Shown: positions 25,754-37,436 of the stretch, piece by piece
Layout: every line of letters begins with the position of its first letter
Position numbering within the stretch: the first letter of the stretch is position 1
Assembly (NCBI GenBank): GCA_913063265.1
Contig: CAJXZG010000006.1
Location: 1-64,000, forward strand
Length of the DNA: 64,000 nucleotides
Origin: an uncultured Prolixibacteraceae bacterium
GTDB lineage: Bacteria; Bacteroidota; Bacteroidia; Bacteroidales; Prolixibacteraceae
Direction of reading: 5' to 3'
Notes under the pieces: model-generated
Seen by the model: the letters and a program-made list of their open reading frames with translations, nothing else
Told to the model about the DNA's origin: nothing
The model's database searches: none
Translations under genes and position numbers: made by a program

Positions 25754-27484
25754 ATGAAAACCAGAATTATATTATTGTTTTTCGCAATCGCATTGGGAGC
25801 TACTGCTCAAAACAAAGAACATGCTTTTGAGGTAAATAAAAGATTAGGCAGGGGCATTAATTTTGGAAATATGTTTGAAGCCGAATCTGAAAACGCTTGG
25901 GGAAATCCCTGGGAACCGGAATATAGTGGTATTGTATCAGAATTAGGTTTTAATCACATCAGGTTGCCAATAAGATGGGAACCATCGGCCCGCAGCAGTT
26001 CTGTGGCACCATATACCATCAACCCAACTTTTTTAAAAAGAATAAAACAAGTAGTTGATTCAGCACTGGCAAATGGTCTTCAAATAATTATCAACATGCA
26101 CCATCATGAAGCATTGTACGATAATCCCGATGGACAAAAAGCCAGGTTTCTTGCTCAATGGGAGCAAATCTCGGAATACTTTAAAGATTATCCTGATTCA
26201 TTATTGTTCGAGGTAATGAACGAACCCCATGGTAATTTGAATCCGGCAAAATGGAACGAGCTGTTTTCCGATGCTTTAACAACTATCAGAGAAACAAATC
26301 CAACAAGAGTGGTTTTAATGGGAACTGCCGAATACGGAGGTTTGGGAGGCTTGTCAAAGCTTGAGCTACCTGAAGATGACAACATTATTGTGACGGTACA
26401 CTATTATAATCCCTTTCATTTTACACACCAGGGAGCCAGTTGGGTTGGCGATGGCAAAGAAGCAGATGCATGGTTAGGAACTACCTGGAATGATTCAGAA
26501 ACCGAAAGACAGGTAATCAGACAGGATTTTGCCGCTCTGAAAGCGTTTGAAAATAAACACAATGTCCCGGTGCATATTGGTGAATTTGGAGCATACAGTA
26601 AAGCGGATATTAAATCCAGGGCAAAATGGACAACTTTTATTGCACGACATTTGGAAACATTGAACTGGAGTTGGGCCTACTGGGAATTTAGTGCCGGATT
26701 TGGTATTTACGACAAAAACAGAAAGACGTACAACCGTGAACTGGTTGATGCACTCTTGCACAATGAAATGCCTGAGCCTGCAAAATATGTTGGAGTTCCG
26801 CTTTATACTTCAGACTTTAAGTTTAACAATAACGGGTGGAATTTTACCAGGCACCAGGGAAGTGCTTCCTTTTCTCGTCAGGATGGTGCTTTAAAAGTGG
26901 ACATCACCGATGGCAGTACCGAAAACTGGCATTTACAGCTGGTTCGTAACAATTTTAGAATTGAAGAAGGCAAAGAATACAGGCTTTCTTTTAAAGCAAA
27001 AGGAGCCGCAAACAGAAATGCTACCGTTTATATGGGTATGACTTCTTCGCCCTGGTCTGCTTACAGCGGATATGTAGGATTTGCAGTTGCCGATACTTTT
27101 TCTACTTACACCATTGTTTTTAAATCTGCCGTGACAGATAGTAAAGCAAGAATAGTTTTTGATATTGGCAATTCAAATGAAGATTTTTATGTGACCGATA
27201 TTAAATTTGAAGAAATTTACATTCAATGGCCAACAAATGTGGAATCCTTTTCTGGTTATGAAACTTCGATTTATCCTAATCCTGCTTCTGATGTTATAAC
27301 AATCAACAACCTGGATAATTTTCAATCTTTTGCCATTATTAATATGCAGGGAGCATTAATTAAATCGAAAAGTTTATATCAGAATTTAAATCAAATAGAA
27401 ATAAACGATTTACCTCCGGGTTTGTACATTGTAAAACTCAAAGGAGAGAACAAAACGATATCACATAAGATAATTAAGAAATAA
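25754..27484 (+). CDS. GH5 endoglucanase-like enzyme with carbohydrate-binding module and T9SS tail
   Basis: A 576-residue secreted enzyme. After the signal peptide (1-19, ending ATAQ) comes a GH5 TIM barrel: GRGINFGNMFEA, GFNHIRLPIRW, INMHHHEAL, acid/base Glu157 in VMNEPHG, VHYYNPFHFTHQG and nucleophile Glu277 in HIGEFGAYSK. Residues about 345-490 form a CBM-like jelly roll (YTSDFKFNNNGWNFTRHQGS). The last 75 residues are a type A T9SS sorting domain (SIYPNPASDVITINN ... GLYIVKLKG), so it is secreted or cell-surface anchored. Endo-beta-1,4-glucanase or related activity is likely. A bidirectional terminator follows. Confidence 0.92.
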   Translation: MKTRIILLFFAIALGATAQNKEHAFEVNKRLGRGINFGNMFEAESENAWGNPWEPEYSGIVSELGFNHIRLPIRWEPSARSSSVAPYTINPTFLKRIKQVVDSALANGLQIIINMHHHEALYDNPDGQKARFLAQWEQISEYFKDYPDSLLFEVMNEPHGNLNPAKWNELFSDALTTIRETNPTRVVLMGTAEYGGLGGLSKLELPEDDNIIVTVHYYNPFHFTHQGASWVGDGKEADAWLGTTWNDSETERQVIRQDFAALKAFENKHNVPVHIGEFGAYSKADIKSRAKWTTFIARHLETLNWSWAYWEFSAGFGIYDKNRKTYNRELVDALLHNEMPEPAKYVGVPLYTSDFKFNNNGWNFTRHQGSASFSRQDGALKVDITDGSTENWHLQLVRNNFRIEEGKEYRLSFKAKGAANRNATVYMGMTSSPWSAYSGYVGFAVADTFSTYTIVFKSAVTDSKARIVFDIGNSNEDFYVTDIKFEEIYIQWPTNVESFSGYETSIYPNPASDVITINNLDNFQSFAIINMQGALIKSKSLYQNLNQIEINDLPPGLYIVKLKGENKTISHKIIKK

Positions 27485-27542: not shown

Positions 27543-28361
27543 TTATTTCTGCTTATAAACTTTTACATAATCAATATAATATTTCTGAGGAAGAATCGAC
27601 TTATCAAGACCTTCACTGCCTCCCCATGAACCTCCAATTGCAAGATTGATGAGTAAATAATGTGGTTTATCAAAAGGCCATACATCATTTCCTGTTCCTT
27701 CGTTTTCAAAAGAAAAATAGATTTCATCATTCAGGTAAAAGTCCATATGATCTTCAAACCATTCAACCGCATATACATTGAAGTTTTCATAAGGTTTCTC
27801 AATGGTAATCTTATTTCCTTTATTTGTCCCAATGGAATGATTGTACGCTTTTGTGTGAACATTGGCATGAATTACATCGGGGTCGTAACCTACGTTTTCC
27901 ATAATATCGATTTCGCCGCAGTCGGGCCAGCGTGTTCCTTCTTTGTGTGCATCGCCCAACATCCAGATTGCAGGCCAGGTACCCAGTCCGGTCGGTAGTT
28001 TTGCCTTTACTTCAATCCGTCCATATAACATACCTTTTTTACCATAGGTATTTAAACTTGCCGAGGTAATTTCGTTGCCTTCATAATTGTCTTTTCTTGC
28101 TTCAATTACCAGGTTGCCGTTTTCAACACGTGCATTTTCCAATCTTTCTTTTGTATAATACTGGGCTTCTTTATTTCGAATAAATCCTTCTTCATATCCC
28201 CAGATTTCAGGATTTGGCAAACCATCCTCATCAAAATTATCTTCCCAAACCAATTCCCACTCTGGTTCGGCAGATTTAGTAACATTTTCAGTATTTGATT
28301 TTTTTGCATTATTACAGGACAGTGTCATCAATACGACAGATAAAAACAGAATTAGTTTCAT
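27543..28361 (-). CDS. GH16 beta-glucanase (laminarinase-like), lipoprotein
   Basis: A 272-residue lipoprotein (Cys16 in LMTLSC) consisting of one GH16 jelly roll. The catalytic motif is GEIDIMENVG, with nucleophile Glu150, Asp152 and acid/base Glu155, the ExDxxE spacing with extra Met found in laminarinases. WELVWEDNFDEDGLPNPEIW, LPTGLGTWPAIWML, HANVHTKAYNH and LLINLAIGGSWGG are all standard. It probably hydrolyses beta-1,3-(1,4)-glucan at the cell surface or in the periplasm. It is convergent with the T9SS GH5 gene, with which it would make a compact beta-glucan toolset. Confidence 0.94.
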   Translation of the reverse strand: MKLILFLSVVLMTLSCNNAKKSNTENVTKSAEPEWELVWEDNFDEDGLPNPEIWGYEEGFIRNKEAQYYTKERLENARVENGNLVIEARKDNYEGNEITSASLNTYGKKGMLYGRIEVKAKLPTGLGTWPAIWMLGDAHKEGTRWPDCGEIDIMENVGYDPDVIHANVHTKAYNHSIGTNKGNKITIEKPYENFNVYAVEWFEDHMDFYLNDEIYFSFENEGTGNDVWPFDKPHYLLINLAIGGSWGGSEGLDKSILPQKYYIDYVKVYKQK

Positions 28362-30263: not shown

Positions 30264-33200
30264 CTATTCCTTTTTATAAATTGCTTTACCGTAATAAACT
30301 CCCTTACCAATTCTTACCCGGTAAAAATACATTGCACTTACTATTTTATCCGGTATAAACTCTGCATTATAAGCAGTACCACCTATTATTATCTGGTCAA
30401 ATAAAGTTTCTATATAGCGACCAGTCATATCATAGATATCAATTTTCGCTTCAACAGTTTCCGGTGAACTAAATTCAAACCTCAAATGATGATTAAAAGG
30501 ATTTGGATAAACTTTCAGGTCTGCATATTTAAGGTCTCGTTCAATAGAAGTTACAATTTCAGCAGATTTATCCTTATCTTTTGCTGAATGGATTACAATT
30601 GAACCACCACTGATTGTTGTTGCAGGATCTGCATTCTCATCATCATTCGAATCGATACAGTTATTATCATAAACAACTTTATTGCTATTGTCCTTATCCC
30701 AGATTTTTATTCGGAATTTATCCAAACCGTCTCCTTTTATTTCACCGTCTATCGCTGATACAAGGAAACCATAATTACCGATTCCGTTAATAGTTCCGGT
30801 ACCTGTGTAATTAGCCTTGAAATTTGCAATTACCAGGCGCATGTCATCATATGCCGAACTATGGAAGTTGATATCACCGGCTTTAAACTGGAATTCGGTG
30901 TTGCCATCCGGAACTGTTGATCCTTTTTTGTATTTGGCCACCAATCCAAAACTGGCTTTGCCCGTTACACCCTCACCTTCCGCATTTTTAAAGCCACACT
31001 CAGGAGACCAGAACCAACCACCACCGGTTACAAATCCACCATCGGGATCATATACAACTACATACTTGTATTCATATACATCAATTTCGCCACAGGGATC
31101 TGTTACTGTAACAGTAACTGTATAAACTCCCGGTTCTGAATATGTATGGGTGGCAATTAGTGAACCTGTTGAAGTGGAATAATTGTCTTCAAGTAAATCA
31201 TCCCATTGAACATTTACTTCTGTTGCATTATCATCGGTAAATGAAATATTCAACGAAGTTTCCGTACCGAGTTGCATTGGCTCAATTGTATTTGGCAGAA
31301 CCTCATTAATTAAAGGTACAGCATTAAGCAGATTAACATTGAACGTGCAGTTAACACTGTTCCCGTTTCCATCGTCAGCAGTGAGCGTAACGGCAACAAT
31401 CTGAGCACCATGGTATGCGGTACCGGAAGCCGGACTCTGGGTTACAGTTACACCGCAGTTATCCGTGGCTGCACCGACAGTAAAGTCGGGTATCGTTGCA
31501 CCACAGGTTCCATCGAGCACAATAGTCTGGTCAGACGGGCAAGAAAGCACCGGCGGAATATTATCCACGACTGTTACAGTTGCCTCACATGTAGATACAT
31601 TTCCATTTACATCAGATACAGATAGGATTACTATATTTGTTCCAATATGGGTACAGTTAAAATCAGTCTGGCTTAGTCCAAGTGAAACAATTCCGCAGGC
31701 ATCACTGGAACCGGCATCAATATCAGTTGCAGTAATCGAAGCCGCACCGTTGGCATCCAATTGAATGGTAATATCCTGGCAAATGGCCGCTGGTGGAATG
31801 TTGTCAACGACTGTTACTGTAGCCGTACAGGTTGATACATTATCATTGTTATCCGTCACGGTCAGGGTGACGTTATTTGGCCCAATGTTGGTACATGTAA
31901 AGGTATTAGGAGTTACACTTAGTGACTTGATACCACAGGCATCGTTTGAGCCTTTGCCTGATGGAGCGCCTTCATCCTTAATACAACGGACACTAAAACC
32001 GTAGTATTTTTTATCATCTGCACGATAGATTTGACCGGTATGACTGTTCAGACTCCGATTCCATGCGAGTATAGCGGATATCTCTGTAGAACTCCACCAA
32101 CCACCCGTGATTCCAATACGAGAAAAAATACCATTGTCAGTTCTGTGGGCACCAGGGAGACATGAAAAGCCAGAATCATCAGTTCCGTTACCATAATTCC
32201 AACCACTGGTAGCTTTTAATTTAGTCCCTTCATCCGTGCCTCGATAACGTGTACCATCAGCTTGACTTAGAGTCATGCCGATAAATATCTCCAATTGTTT
32301 AATTTCTTCATCAGTTGGGATATGCCAACCTGAAGGACACAGTTTTCCAGAATTAACTGCATACCAGTTATAAAGTGGACCGTAAGTATTATGAAAAGTA
32401 TCATAATCGTTGTTATACCAGCATAAACCTGGTGAAATTAAATTTGTCCATGCAATATCATCTGTTACAACTGGAATAGTTGTGCCATCATTGAATTTAG
32501 TGGCTTTCAGATTTTCAGCCATCCAGATTTGTTCTCCTATCCTTATCCATTTATATTCATGCCCGTCGCGTTCATCAATAAATGTACCTGATTCACCGGA
32601 AAAAGGTGAACTATTGTCAATATCTTCGGCTGTAATCATAGCAATTCCTGATTCGTCCAGTTCCACTGTAATATTCTGGCAGAGCGCTTCCGGCGGGATA
32701 TTGTCTTCAACAGTTACTGTTGCTTCGCAGGTAGAGAAATTCCCGCTGTTGTCGGTCACGGTCAGTATGACGGTATTTTCCCCGACATCATCACAAGTAA
32801 ATGTATTTGGAGCAACGCTCAACGAAGCTATTCCACAGGCATCACTGGAACCGTCATCCACATCATCAGCACTAATTGAAGCTGCACCACTGGCATCCAG
32901 TTCAACGGTGATATCCCGGCAAAGAGCCAGAGGAGGAATATTGTCCAACACAGTCACAACCGAGGTGCAAGTCGTAACATTATCATTGTTATCAGTCACG
33001 GTCAGGGTGATGGTATTTGGCCCGACATTAGCACAGGTAAAGGTATTTGGAGTCACACTGATTGATTGAATACCACAGGCATCGTTTGAGCCATTGCCTG
33101 AACCTGCTGAGGCACTTGCATCCTTAATGCATCTGACACTAAAACCAGGTGTCTTATAGTCTCCAGCTCGATAGATATTAGTGCGAGCGTATCCTAATCG

Positions 33201-36200
33201 ACGGTGCCATGCAAAAGATTGCGTATCCTCTGTGGTACTCCAATAATAACCGATTTGTCCAATGCCCGCGAATGAGCTGGATCCTGAATAACCTCCAGGA
33301 ATACCCATAAAACCTGTTTCTTCAAAAACAGGATCCAATTCTAACAATCCATCAAGCCATAGATTAGCATTCCCGGCCAGTTTGCTACCCTCATTTGTAC
33401 CTCGCCAAAATATCTCATCAGCTTCACTTTGGCCCATTCCCAAAAACATTTCCAATTGTTTCCATTCTGCATCACTTGGCAAGTGCCAGCCATCTGGAGA
33501 TATCCCCTGTACACCACTTGGATTGGCAGAACTACTGCCTGCACCTGCCATTGCAGCTATCCAGTTGTATAAAACTCCATAAGTGGAGTAATTAGCCGTT
33601 GCTTTTGCTTCTGATACATCAGTACCAAAGTACTCATAAACACAATAATGGGGTTCCGTTCCGGATAATTGCGGAGGACTTACAGAAGGCAGGTAAGCCA
33701 GATTTTCAGCCATCCAGATTTGATCTCCGATTTTTACCCATTTGTATTCATGCCCGTCGCGTTCATCCGTAAATGTACCTGATTCACCAGTAAAAGGTGA
33801 GTCAAAATCAATATCTTCGGCTGTAATTGTTGCCATTCCTGATTCGTCCAGTTCTACCGTAATATTCTGACAGAGTGCTTCAGGAGGCACGTTGTCTTCA
33901 ACTATTACTGTAGCAGTACATGTTGATTCATTCCCGTTAATATCAGTGACGGTTAAAGTTACATTGTTAGTCCCAACATGAGTACAGTTAAAATCCGTCT
34001 GGCTCAGCACAAGCGAAGCAATACCACAGTCATCGTTTGAGCCGTTATCAATATCTTCTACAGTAATTGTTACTGTACCATTGGCATCGAGTTGAACCGT
34101 AATATCCTGACAAACGGCGATAGGTGGGACATTGTCTTCAACTGTTACTGTAGATGCACATGTTGAAACATTACCGTTATTGTCGCTTACAGTTAATAGT
34201 ACCGAGTTGGGACCAACTTCTGTACAGGTAAACGTATTAGGCGAAACTGTCATAGATGCAATTCCACAGGCATCGTTTGAACCATTGTTTATATCAGCTG
34301 CTGTAATGCTTACGTCTGCTGTTGTTACGCTAACATCCTTTATACATCGAACTGAATATCCAAGTTCTTTCATGCTGTGACTGATGCTGGCATAATCCCT
34401 GGAATAGGCTAAACGAAAATCTCCACCGCGATCAGAAGAAAATTCGAGACTACTCCACCAATAGCCATAATAAGTACTGCTTCTGAAAATACCGTCTGCG
34501 CCTAAATTACCACTAGGAAGAGCTGTAAAGCCAAAATCATCAGTTCCGGCGCCGGTTACCTGCCAATCCAATATAGCTTTGAGTGCTTTACCTTCAGCAC
34601 TTGAATGTCCGTTGACGGCTAAATAATTGATTAGTTCTGTCCATTCAGCCTCAGTGGGAATATGCCAGCCGTTAGGAGCTACTCCCTGCAAACTGACTGG
34701 ATCAGAAGTACTGTTCCCTTCAAGGGCCATTGCGGCTGGCCAATTATACAATACACCATAGGTAGCATAGTAATTACTTGATTTTGCTTCATTAACATCT
34801 GTACCATTGTATCCCATGACATAGTAATAGGACTCAGTAGAGGATCTTACACTACTCGGACTGACAGAAGGTAGGTAAGCAAGGTTTTCAGCCATCCATA
34901 CCTGGTCTCCTATTTTTACCCAATTGTATTCAGTACCATCCCGTTCATCAGTAAATGTACCGTTTTCTGAAGCATCAAGCTGAACAGTTATGTCTTTACA
35001 TAGGGCTTGCGGCGGAATGTTGTCTTCAACAGACACTGTAGCTTCACAGATAGAGACATTCCCGTTAACATCGGTGACTGATAAGGTTACCAAATTATCG
35101 CCTACATCGTCACACCCAAATGCATTCGGAGATACGGTCATTGATGCAATTCCACAATTATCATTTGAACTATTATCAATATCTGCTGCTGTGACTGTGG
35201 CAAATCCTGAAACTTCGCCTTCGTTTACCATGACAATATTTACATCCTTAATACAACGAACACTTAAACCATAATTTTTATAAATACTTTGTCTTGCTAT
35301 TTCATCATAAGGTTTATCCAGATGTCTATACCAAGCCTCAGATTCATATGTTTCATTCTGCGATGAAGTCCACCAACTTCCATAATGCGATGCACCATAA
35401 AAAGATCCGTTTCCATGCAAATAACCGCCAGGAAATGCAGTAAAACCATAATCATCGGTACCATTGCCATCAGCCCGCCATCCAATGGTTGATTTTAATT
35501 TAGCTCCTACATTTGTACCTCTCCATCCTGTATTATCAGCTTCACTTTGGCTCATTCCCAGGAACATTTCCAGTTGTTTCCACTCTTCATCTGAAGGCAA
35601 ACGCCAACCTTCAGGGCACGCGGAAATAGCAGTTTCCCAATTATATAACCTGCCATAGGTTGCTACATTTGTTTCATCATTGTTATATGCCCAGCATCCT
35701 TCAACTGCATTATAAGCCAGGTTTTCAGCCATCCAGATCTGTTCTCCTATTTTTACCCATTTGTATTCATGTCCATCGCGTTTGTCGGTAAATGTTCCGT
35801 GACCTGAGGCATCAAGTTGAACAGTGATGTCTTTGCATAGGGCTTGTGGCGGAACATTGTCTTCGATAGTCACTGTAGCTTCGCAGGTTGATACATTGCC
35901 ATTATTATCGGTAACAGTAAGAATGACTGTATTTTCTCCTACATCTGAGCAAGTAAAAACACTTTGCGAAACAGATAAGGTAATTTGATTGCCAGTACTA
36001 CCGTCGTCAATAGATGAAGGTTCAAGGATTGCCTGACCATTATTGTCGAGTTGGAGTGTGGTATTTTGACATATTGCTGCACAGGAACTTCCTAGTCGGG
36101 CAACAAAAATATCATCAAGACCTGAGCCAGTTAGGTTTATTTCATCAAAAGTTCCGGATCCTCCATAGCTTCCTGTTACAACTAAGTTATCTAAATTCCC

Positions 36201-37436
36201 CAGAGCAATGTTGAATCCAATATCATCTCCCGGGCCACCTGCTTGTTTTACCCATATAACATTACCCAATGGATCATATTTAGAAACAAAAATATCTAGT
36301 CCTCCAGCACTGTTTAACGAGAATGCATCAAATAATCCGATATTCTCGAAACATCCAACAACTATGCTGTTTCCCGTTTCATCCGTAACTATTTGCGGTA
36401 CAAAATCATGTTGTGATGGAGGTATTGTTCCGCCACTTTGTTTCACCCAAACAATGTTTCCCAGATTATTATATTTAGCAACAAAAATATTATCATCACC
36501 AACACTGGAAAGCAATGTCCCGCTAAAGTTTGCATTATCCTGAAAATAACCAGAGACATAACAGTTACCAAACATATCTGTGTCTATCCCATGTCCCTTA
36601 TCACCTTCTACACCACCTGCACTGTTAGCCCATAATACATTACCATTCTCGCTATATTTGGCAACGAAAATATCGTGACTCCCAGAACTGTTAAGTGTAA
36701 CAACATCAAAATTAGACCATTCATAAAAATAACCTGTTATAAAAATATTATTGGCATCGTCAACACTAATATCAGTGGGAATGTCTGTACTTGGCCCACC
36801 ATTTCGTTTGGCCCAAATTACATTTCCCGAAGCATCATATTTTACGATGAAGACATCACCCCATCCGGCACTTGACAGGACAATTGATTCAAAAGCTACG
36901 TTATGCTGAAAAAATCCGGTAATTATTATATTCCCTAATTTATCAGTTACGACATCCCATCCTTCATCCCAACTTGGACTGCCATGTTGTTTTGCCCATA
37001 ATACATTGCCGTTTGGGTCAAACTTTACTACGAATATATCTCCCCAACCGGCACTGGTGAGACTTATTGTTCCAAAGGTTGCTGTACCTTCTAAACATCC
37101 TGTAACAATAATATTTTCAGATTCATCGGTTGTTATTCCATATCCTTTAACAGATCCCGAACCTTCTGTTTGTTTTGCCCACATCAAACTGCCTGATTCA
37201 TCATACTTGGCAATAAAAAGTGAATAATCGCCATTGCTAGTCAATGTTGTAATACCAAAATTCGCTACACCAGAAAATCGACCTGTAACAATACTATTAC
37301 CTAAATTATCAATGGCAACATCATATCCATATTCATTATCTATTCCTCCAGCAGATTTTGCCCAAAGAAAATCAGGAATTTGTGAATACGTTATATTTGA
37401 AATAAGAAAAAATATTATTAGATATAAATTCTTCAT
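30264..37436 (-). CDS. giant T9SS-secreted protein: SBBP propeller, HYR-like repeats with nested FISUMP domains, PKD
   Basis: A 2390-residue secreted mosaic. After a signal peptide (1-18) there are seven SBBP repeats (about 24-455), each ending like DIFVAKYDxxGNVLWAK, which would close a seven-bladed propeller. Then come nine HYR-like units of the pattern PPxAxCxDITVxLD ... CGI ... VTDNNGNVSTC ... VEDN. Units 2, 3, 5 and 7 are interrupted by FISUMP (Fib_succ_major) domains, each starting GTFTDERDGHEYKW (or a variant) and ending SVRCIKD. A PKD-like domain (THTYSEPGVYTVTVTVTDPCG), a conserved GGGWFWSPECGF module and a T9SS type A tail (KVYPNPFNHHLRFEF) follow. Probable roles are adhesion or surface recognition; no catalytic motif is seen. 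Confidence 0.9.
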   Translation of the reverse strand: MKNLYLIIFFLISNITYSQIPDFLWAKSAGGIDNEYGYDVAIDNLGNSIVTGRFSGVANFGITTLTSNGDYSLFIAKYDESGSLMWAKQTEGSGSVKGYGITTDESENIIVTGCLEGTATFGTISLTSAGWGDIFVVKFDPNGNVLWAKQHGSPSWDEGWDVVTDKLGNIIITGFFQHNVAFESIVLSSAGWGDVFIVKYDASGNVIWAKRNGGPSTDIPTDISVDDANNIFITGYFYEWSNFDVVTLNSSGSHDIFVAKYSENGNVLWANSAGGVEGDKGHGIDTDMFGNCYVSGYFQDNANFSGTLLSSVGDDNIFVAKYNNLGNIVWVKQSGGTIPPSQHDFVPQIVTDETGNSIVVGCFENIGLFDAFSLNSAGGLDIFVSKYDPLGNVIWVKQAGGPGDDIGFNIALGNLDNLVVTGSYGGSGTFDEINLTGSGLDDIFVARLGSSCAAICQNTTLQLDNNGQAILEPSSIDDGSTGNQITLSVSQSVFTCSDVGENTVILTVTDNNGNVSTCEATVTIEDNVPPQALCKDITVQLDASGHGTFTDKRDGHEYKWVKIGEQIWMAENLAYNAVEGCWAYNNDETNVATYGRLYNWETAISACPEGWRLPSDEEWKQLEMFLGMSQSEADNTGWRGTNVGAKLKSTIGWRADGNGTDDYGFTAFPGGYLHGNGSFYGASHYGSWWTSSQNETYESEAWYRHLDKPYDEIARQSIYKNYGLSVRCIKDVNIVMVNEGEVSGFATVTAADIDNSSNDNCGIASMTVSPNAFGCDDVGDNLVTLSVTDVNGNVSICEATVSVEDNIPPQALCKDITVQLDASENGTFTDERDGTEYNWVKIGDQVWMAENLAYLPSVSPSSVRSSTESYYYVMGYNGTDVNEAKSSNYYATYGVLYNWPAAMALEGNSTSDPVSLQGVAPNGWHIPTEAEWTELINYLAVNGHSSAEGKALKAILDWQVTGAGTDDFGFTALPSGNLGADGIFRSSTYYGYWWSSLEFSSDRGGDFRLAYSRDYASISHSMKELGYSVRCIKDVSVTTADVSITAADINNGSNDACGIASMTVSPNTFTCTEVGPNSVLLTVSDNNGNVSTCASTVTVEDNVPPIAVCQDITVQLDANGTVTITVEDIDNGSNDDCGIASLVLSQTDFNCTHVGTNNVTLTVTDINGNESTCTATVIVEDNVPPEALCQNITVELDESGMATITAEDIDFDSPFTGESGTFTDERDGHEYKWVKIGDQIWMAENLAYLPSVSPPQLSGTEPHYCVYEYFGTDVSEAKATANYSTYGVLYNWIAAMAGAGSSSANPSGVQGISPDGWHLPSDAEWKQLEMFLGMGQSEADEIFWRGTNEGSKLAGNANLWLDGLLELDPVFEETGFMGIPGGYSGSSSFAGIGQIGYYWSTTEDTQSFAWHRRLGYARTNIYRAGDYKTPGFSVRCIKDASASAGSGNGSNDACGIQSISVTPNTFTCANVGPNTITLTVTDNNDNVTTCTSVVTVLDNIPPLALCRDITVELDASGAASISADDVDDGSSDACGIASLSVAPNTFTCDDVGENTVILTVTDNSGNFSTCEATVTVEDNIPPEALCQNITVELDESGIAMITAEDIDNSSPFSGESGTFIDERDGHEYKWIRIGEQIWMAENLKATKFNDGTTIPVVTDDIAWTNLISPGLCWYNNDYDTFHNTYGPLYNWYAVNSGKLCPSGWHIPTDEEIKQLEIFIGMTLSQADGTRYRGTDEGTKLKATSGWNYGNGTDDSGFSCLPGAHRTDNGIFSRIGITGGWWSSTEISAILAWNRSLNSHTGQIYRADDKKYYGFSVRCIKDEGAPSGKGSNDACGIKSLSVTPNTFTCTNIGPNNVTLTVTDNNDNVSTCTATVTVVDNIPPAAICQDITIQLDANGAASITATDIDAGSSDACGIVSLGLSQTDFNCTHIGTNIVILSVSDVNGNVSTCEATVTVVDNIPPVLSCPSDQTIVLDGTCGATIPDFTVGAATDNCGVTVTQSPASGTAYHGAQIVAVTLTADDGNGNSVNCTFNVNLLNAVPLINEVLPNTIEPMQLGTETSLNISFTDDNATEVNVQWDDLLEDNYSTSTGSLIATHTYSEPGVYTVTVTVTDPCGEIDVYEYKYVVVYDPDGGFVTGGGWFWSPECGFKNAEGEGVTGKASFGLVAKYKKGSTVPDGNTEFQFKAGDINFHSSAYDDMRLVIANFKANYTGTGTINGIGNYGFLVSAIDGEIKGDGLDKFRIKIWDKDNSNKVVYDNNCIDSNDDENADPATTISGGSIVIHSAKDKDKSAEIVTSIERDLKYADLKVYPNPFNHHLRFEFSSPETVEAKIDIYDMTGRYIETLFDQIIIGGTAYNAEFIPDKIVSAMYFYRVRIGKGVYYGKAIYKKE
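31973..35800 (-). repeat. four FISUMP-domain copies nested in HYR-like repeats
   Basis: FISUMP copies lie at about 35240-35800, 34330-34965, 33118-33785 and 31973-32590. All share the entry (W-V-K-I-G-D/E-Q-I/V-W-M-A-E-N-L), a GWxLPSDxEWKQLE-type core, a YWWSST-type segment and the exit SVRCIKD. The DNA of the entry segment is nearly identical between copies over about 60 bases, while the central parts differ, so copies have been duplicated or homogenised within the gene. Confidence 0.8.

Follow-up and report, generated by a model that had tools for sequence, protein, structure and literature searches.

The window analysed here (the whole stretch of DNA, 64 kb or 64,000 nt) contains a single uninterrupted open reading frame coding for a 2390-aa product (Table 1), hereafter the stalk protein. 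A Pfam search with the complete product identified four FISUMP domains (PF09603, total 526 bits) together with HYR, SBBP and PKD matches. The order along the chain is a putative signal peptide, propeller repeats, nine HYR-like units (U1 to U9), a PKD domain, a post-COAP-like region and a T9SS tail. A reading made from the sequence only had placed a seven-bladed SBBP propeller at one end and a T9SS tail at the other, and both were found: there are seven W-[AV]-[KN] repeats at aa 25-395, spaced 61-65 aa, and the tail scores above the cut-off of NCBIfam TIGR04183, with Pfam PF18962 at 23.3 bits, below its cut-off of 27. Its description of the region between them stood for the four FISUMPs in HYR-like units and needed amending in that there are nine units, of which five are uninterrupted, with two insertion sites, and in that the stalk is separated from the tail by a PKD domain and a weak post-COAP-1 match. 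No RTX repeat family appeared among the Pfam and NCBIfam matches of the protein, which has a T9SS tail instead, and the protein would be exported and anchored to the surface through this tail.

Table 1. Features of the stalk gene and its product; coordinates are those of the window.
Feature	Residues (aa)	Coordinates	Strand	Basis
Whole ORF, probable T9SS-secreted surface protein	2390 aa in all	30264..37436	-	Pfam, NCBIfam
Probable signal peptide	1-19	37380..37436	-	by eye from translation
SBBP beta-propeller region, seven ~61-aa repeats	20-452	36081..37379	-	SBBP 60 bits, seven W[AV][KN] motifs
HYR-like unit U1, intact	453-530	35847..36080	-	unit alignment/profile
U2, first part	531-546	35799..35846	-	unit alignment/profile
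FISUMP F1, in U2 at site A	547-731	35244..35798	-	PF09603 146.7 bits
U2, remainder	732-809	35010..35243	-	unit alignment/profile
U3, first part	810-825	34962..35009	-	profile, AlphaFold2 model
FISUMP F2, in U3 at site A	826-1034	34335..34961	-	PF09603 125.1 bits
U3, remainder	1035-1105	34122..34334	-	profile, AlphaFold2 model
HYR-like unit U4, intact		33882..34121	-	profile, AlphaFold2 model
U5, first part	1186-1219	33780..33881	-	unit alignment/profile
FISUMP F3, in U5 at site B	1220-1439	33120..33779	-	PF09603 144.1 bits
U5, remainder	1440-1502	32931..33119	-	unit alignment/profile
HYR-like unit U6, intact		32691..32930	-	profile, AlphaFold2 model
U7, first part	1583-1616	32589..32690	-	profile, AlphaFold2 model
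FISUMP F4, in U7 at site B	1617-1821	31974..32588	-	PF09603 150.4 bits
U7, remainder	1822-1882	31791..31973	-	profile, AlphaFold2 model
HYR-like unit U8, intact		31551..31790	-	profile, AlphaFold2 model
HYR-like unit U9, intact		31311..31550	-	HYR 22.5 bits
PKD domain region	2043-2122	31071..31310	-	PF18911, PF00801
Post-COAP-1-like region	2135-2252	30681..31034	-	NF041523 24.5 bits, below cut-off 40
T9SS type A sorting domain	2309-2386	30279..30512	-	TIGR04183 28.3 bits, cut-off 23

The intact units (U1, U4, U6, U8 and U9) are 78-80 aa each. When they were scanned singly, U9 alone reached the cut-off of the Pfam HYR family (PF02494, 21.7 bits), U1, U4 and U6 scored 18.3-19.7 bits and U8 gave no HYR match at E 0.1, and for this reason we designate the units as HYR-like; over the whole protein, the HYR score was 60.2 bits. 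The four FISUMPs, designated F1 to F4 (185, 209, 220 and 205 aa, counted from GTF to CIKD), are all full length (PF09603/TIGR02145), matching positions 1-187 with 125-150 bits against a cut-off of 33.9. We then examined the interrupted units with a profile of the unit, based on 313 non-redundant units out of 496, all from other fetched loci. The profile matched U2 (positions 1-20 and 12-79), U3 (1-20 and 14-79), U5 and U7 (both 1-27 and 25-79), in each case split around the FISUMP, with the two complementary pieces overlapping by 3-9 profile positions. Site A (U2, U3) is located after the first strand, following LDAS, with the first match extending a few residues into the FISUMP, and site B (U5, U7) in the next loop, after AEDID. 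Likewise, in an alignment of U6-U7-U8 with eight intact triplets and nine FISUMP sequences (A7), the FISUMP was bridged by a gap in all eight triplets, and the FISUMP sequences filled this gap; alignments A5, A6, A9 and A10 were discarded because FISUMP ends or a row had been put in the wrong place, and A8 was not chosen. The complementary pieces at all four sites bear out the earlier claim that four FISUMPs of 180-220 aa interrupt HYR-like units whose sandwich sequence then resumes. As judged from the sequence, U2, U3, U5 and U7 are each discontinuous around a complete FISUMP, as are the units of split-domain adhesins.

Two segments were modeled with AlphaFold2, U6-U7[F4]-U8 (alignment of 20 rows; mean pLDDT 86.4, pTM 0.56) and U3[F2]-U4 (19 rows; mean pLDDT 81.7, pTM 0.59), both from alignments that contained intact units, which could favour a nested fold. 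Over 80 unit positions, with the break placed from the unit profile, the DSSP states of nested U7 were those of U6 at 78 positions and those of U8 at 77, and nested U3 agreed with U6 of the other model at 78 and with its neighbour U4 at 73; the intact units U6 and U8 agreed at 75, and the best of 200 rotated controls of U7 against U6 at 47. At site A the strand state alone is no proof, because this strand might instead be paired with the beginning of the FISUMP. Confidence in the first parts, in blocks of 10 residues, was 94 then 74 for U3 and 86, 89 and 71 for U7, and 93-97 for the equivalent stretch of intact U6; the pLDDT of the FISUMPs fell to 47-60 in parts. The sequence-only reading had proposed that an interrupted unit would fold as one sandwich with the FISUMP looping out, and in the models the strands and helices of U7 and U3 do match those of intact units. 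The models thus support that the two parts of U3 and of U7 carry the predicted strands and helices of an intact unit, and from the DSSP strands and pLDDT we infer that the two halves would pack into one sandwich. The top PDB matches in Foldseek were 6xi1, the tandem extender from an RTX adhesin of Aeromonas, for U6-U7[F4]-U8, and 6s5y, tandem Rib domains, for U3[F2]-U4, with low TM-scores because the queries are multi-domain; in a viral structure library the best match was a phage FISUMP protein. The Aureispira grappling hook protein GhpA (9flv, 9flp) was among the Foldseek matches of both models. A sequence search of solved structures found no convincing relative of the FISUMPs.

A profile spanning the whole nested unit (positions 1-304) was matched only by the stalk gene, among the matches listed, both in 140 genomes of the family, scoring up to 16 candidates per genome, and in 393 genomes of the order and 395 of the class, up to five candidates per genome, the three sets overlapping. 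A scan of genome contigs (best 80 matches), which may leave out near kin, matched the HYR-like part and exposed other nested units. FISUMP and HYR-like matches occurred in one ORF in five of the 187 fetched loci, all five being the stalk gene itself. Among 58 other FISUMP ORFs longer than 450 aa, many of them cut at the ends of the stretches and some of them duplicates, there was no case of a split HYR-like unit enclosing a FISUMP, and six had a weak partial unit match. No second gene with FISUMP and HYR in the same order was therefore found among the matches listed, in agreement with the sequence-only reading, and the titles and opening lines of abstracts listed by a literature search made no mention of HYR nesting.

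HYR-like units are, nevertheless, interrupted by other inserts in other genes. We surveyed 88 other HYR-like ORFs in 94 fetched loci (76 genome contigs and 18 viral contigs, with some overlap), which yielded 725 whole units and 46 matches ending mid-unit after the first part. Leaving aside 17 broken units without a following match, one with a run of N (L134) and one with an insert of less than 25 aa, there remained 27, in 17 loci; all 27 were completed after the insert (89-228 aa) and in no case did a new whole unit come next. In 20 pairs the two parts join to within eight profile positions, and in the other seven they overlap by 15-31 positions, so that their breakpoints are not sharp. The mean mismatch was 8.5 positions, against 13.3 with permuted partners, and none of 10,000 permutations was as low. 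The rough break positions were 44-58 in 14 units, 32-43 in nine, 22-31 in three and beyond 58 in one. These numbers are not unbiased nesting rates, because the loci were chosen by similarity to the C-terminal half of the stalk gene.

Pfam scans of the 27 inserts (E 0.01), with insert ends placed by hand from two passes, identified LamG (Laminin_G_3) in nine, SUEL lectin in two, lamin-tail domains in four (two below the cut-off) and DUF4394 in two (one below the cut-off), and no family in the other ten. In a metagenome-assembled genome of Lewinella, Lamin Tail Domains above the cut-off lie inside HYR-like units at L139:9552-10058 and L139:10803-11324. The ten inserts without a Pfam family (89-227 aa), in loci L125, L138, L124, L133, L166, L172, L186, L152 and L131, are candidates for undescribed binding domains. 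The C-terminus was complete in 11 of the 17 ORFs with nested units, and nine of these contained a T9SS type A domain above the cut-off; no such domain scored above it in L177 and L166. By record title the 17 loci belong to Bacteroidota names or groups, Roseivirga being confirmed, and for most of them we take the phylum to be Bacteroidota.

The stalk gene has two glycoside hydrolase (GH) genes nearby: its third gene neighbour codes for a GH16 enzyme (27543-28361), adjoining the fourth, which codes for a T9SS-tailed GH5 cellulase with a CBM_4_9 domain (25754-27484). These neighbours would fit a contact of the stalk protein with polysaccharides, and prove nothing. Four of the five FISUMPs of the genome are in the stalk gene, and the fifth (L222:4748-5413, on contig C10) is a stand-alone protein of 221 aa whose start resembles that of a secreted protein; by eye, its gene is flanked by what look like genes for GH9- and GH28-type enzymes. 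Two other giant HYR-like proteins of the same genome, L217 (contig C44) and L219 (contig C40), appear by eye to have the PKD, post-COAP-like and C-terminal end in common with the stalk protein, and L217 also a propeller-like head. In contrast with the stalk protein, their heads are different and they had no match in the FISUMP search of the genome; no split unit was seen by eye in four HYR-like ORFs of this genome.

The four FISUMPs are not each other's closest kin. In a tree of F1 to F4 with 70 of 138 qualifying FISUMPs, the four fall in four clades and the starred branches force four label changes, although these are short, divergent domains and the tree is not settled (bootstrap correlation 0.970). 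Each body had its best BLAST match, by bit score, in another genome (48-60% identity), against 36-48% with its siblings, which ranked 25th to 143rd in a comparison set that was chosen by likeness to F1-F4 and contains some duplicates. The frames, on the contrary, are closely kin within site B: U5 and U7 agree at 28 of 33 residues ahead of the FISUMP and at 47 of 61 behind it, and their bases are 83-90% identical as far as roughly codon 60, 33-71% in the body and mostly 75-87% past it, with 72% in the last six codons. Among codons for the same residue, U5 and U7 were identical at 41 of 49 in the segment ahead of the body, which comprises the HYR part and the start of the FISUMP, against 25 of 51 within the body itself (Fisher p 0.0003), and at 78 of 105 over all flanks (p 0.002), and U2 and U3 at 24 of 35 against 15 of 37 in the body (p 0.02), with segments picked after the identity profile had been seen and uncorrected p-values. 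For U2 and U3 the contrast was small on the C side (22 of 42 after the FISUMP against 15 of 37), and pairs across sites (U2 or U3 with U5 or U7) showed no kinship at silent sites over the start of the HYR part (1-3 of 10). The four clades, together with closely kin U5 and U7 frames and a sharp drop inside the FISUMP, suggest that the payload was exchanged as a cassette. The simplest reading of the sequences is that duplication of a nested frame took place in each site class, followed by replacement of the body through recombination inside the conserved FISUMP ends; independent FISUMP insertions with flanks homogenised later would also be conceivable.

Could the apparent nesting be simply a string of domains arranged end to end, with the FISUMPs and the HYR halves as separate small domains and the half-units as degenerate repeats? 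The nested unit is indeed not visible by Pfam alone and single intact units score low, but the parts are complementary and conservation at the level of the unit is kept at all four sites, the secondary structure is that of intact units in both units modeled, a one-strand stretch of 16 residues would have no core of its own, and in the survey a first part never preceded a whole unit (0 of 27), which makes this arrangement very improbable. Even less credible is an assembly or sequencing artefact joining unrelated genes: the genome is a draft of 190 contigs and the gene is repetitive, yet the eight joins preserve the reading frame across 2390 codons free of stops and all are at two structural loops, and named isolates, among them Roseivirga ehrenbergii and Christiangramia aestuarii, also have nested units with other payloads.

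Cassette exchange has its own competitor, namely that units were duplicated first and their FISUMP bodies then diverged where they stood, under diversifying selection or through a diversity-generating retroelement (DGR). It is favoured by the divergence of the bodies between conserved ends, and FISUMP is a DGR target domain according to two reports (PMC4159848; PMC8934634). However, body silent sites, with all pairs pooled, are 45% identical, near the 42% expected from codon usage over the whole alignment, those of U5 and U7 ahead of the body are 84% identical, and the bodies are nearer to FISUMPs of other genomes than to one another, so that divergence in place is unlikely. A DGR as the main reading was rejected, since no DGR-type reverse transcriptase was found in the genome (94% complete); its sole RVT_1 match has motifs that we take to be those of the group II intron type. 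As to their role, the nested FISUMPs might be stiffeners, spacers or inert passengers instead of binding modules. Against this, 11 of the 27 nested inserts elsewhere belong to families named as lectin-like (the LamG and SUEL ones), RTX adhesins have glycan binders of measured affinity on their split domains (PMC12077191), and a landfill study refers to a FISUMP protein as a putative cellulose-binding protein (PMC5541161); we consider a non-binding role improbable.

Overall, we think it likely that the gene codes for a giant T9SS-exported surface protein with a split-domain design, in which four FISUMPs are side branches of an Ig/HYR-like stalk. In U2, U3, U5 and U7 the chain would exit the sandwich via a loop, fold the FISUMP and re-enter to complete the sandwich; because the chain goes back into the sandwich that it left, the points where the payload begins and ends would be next to each other, with the payload's far face pointing away from the stalk axis. 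The payloads probably bind glycans or other surface ligands. We favour a multivalent adhesin or substrate-binding stalk, by analogy, because of the split-domain anatomy of RTX adhesins, the FISUMP literature and the GH5 and GH16 neighbours. The sandwiches might act as sockets, whose payloads would be swapped through recombination at the conserved ends of the FISUMPs. Extending this to Bacteroidota at large, so that HYR-like sandwiches would be general-purpose T9SS display sockets in about four different loops of one fold, with payload cassettes exchanged by recombination, is a generalisation that we hold with even expectations for and against; it covers FISUMP, LamG, lamin-tail, SUEL lectin and unnamed domains as payloads and, if true, binding range would change with the stalk untouched. 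The results hint at a way in which surface proteins might change what they bind and leave the stalk as it is. They also provide a rule for searches, in which a broken HYR-like unit is taken as the sign of a payload and leads to candidate binding domains, including the 10 of 27 inserts without a Pfam family.

Compared with known systems, the four inserts are like the FISUMP domains (PF09603) of other FISUMP-domain and DGR variable proteins in being full length and above the Pfam cut-off. The stalk protein differs from these in the nesting, which none of the 58 other ORFs had, and in that no DGR-type reverse transcriptase was found. The closest design is that of RTX adhesins, where Ig-like 'split domains' hold a ligand-binding domain off axis with its two ends together, as described in two reports (PMC12077191; PMC10865825). 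The claim that no described protein has this architecture held for FISUMP in HYR in the literature searched, but not for the principle, already published for those adhesins. As in Vibrio FrhA, Marinomonas MpIBP and Aeromonas AhLap, a binding domain emerges from an Ig-like unit beside an Ig-like stalk, and in FrhA the first section of the split domain is a single strand, like that of site A (PMC10865825; PMC12077191). In contrast, RTX adhesins have RTX repeats and a type I secretion signal where the stalk protein has a T9SS tail, and the latter has another sandwich family, another payload, and four payloads at two loops with evidence of payload exchange. The split-domain principle is thus known, and what is new is its T9SS/HYR-like setting, the FISUMP payload, the apparent exchange of this payload and the recurrence with other payloads, which adds giant T9SS-tailed proteins to the RTX adhesins as bearers of the design. 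By analogy, the stalk protein would work like a split-domain adhesin without being an RTX adhesin, following the RTX 'split domain' plan with other parts and another secretion route.
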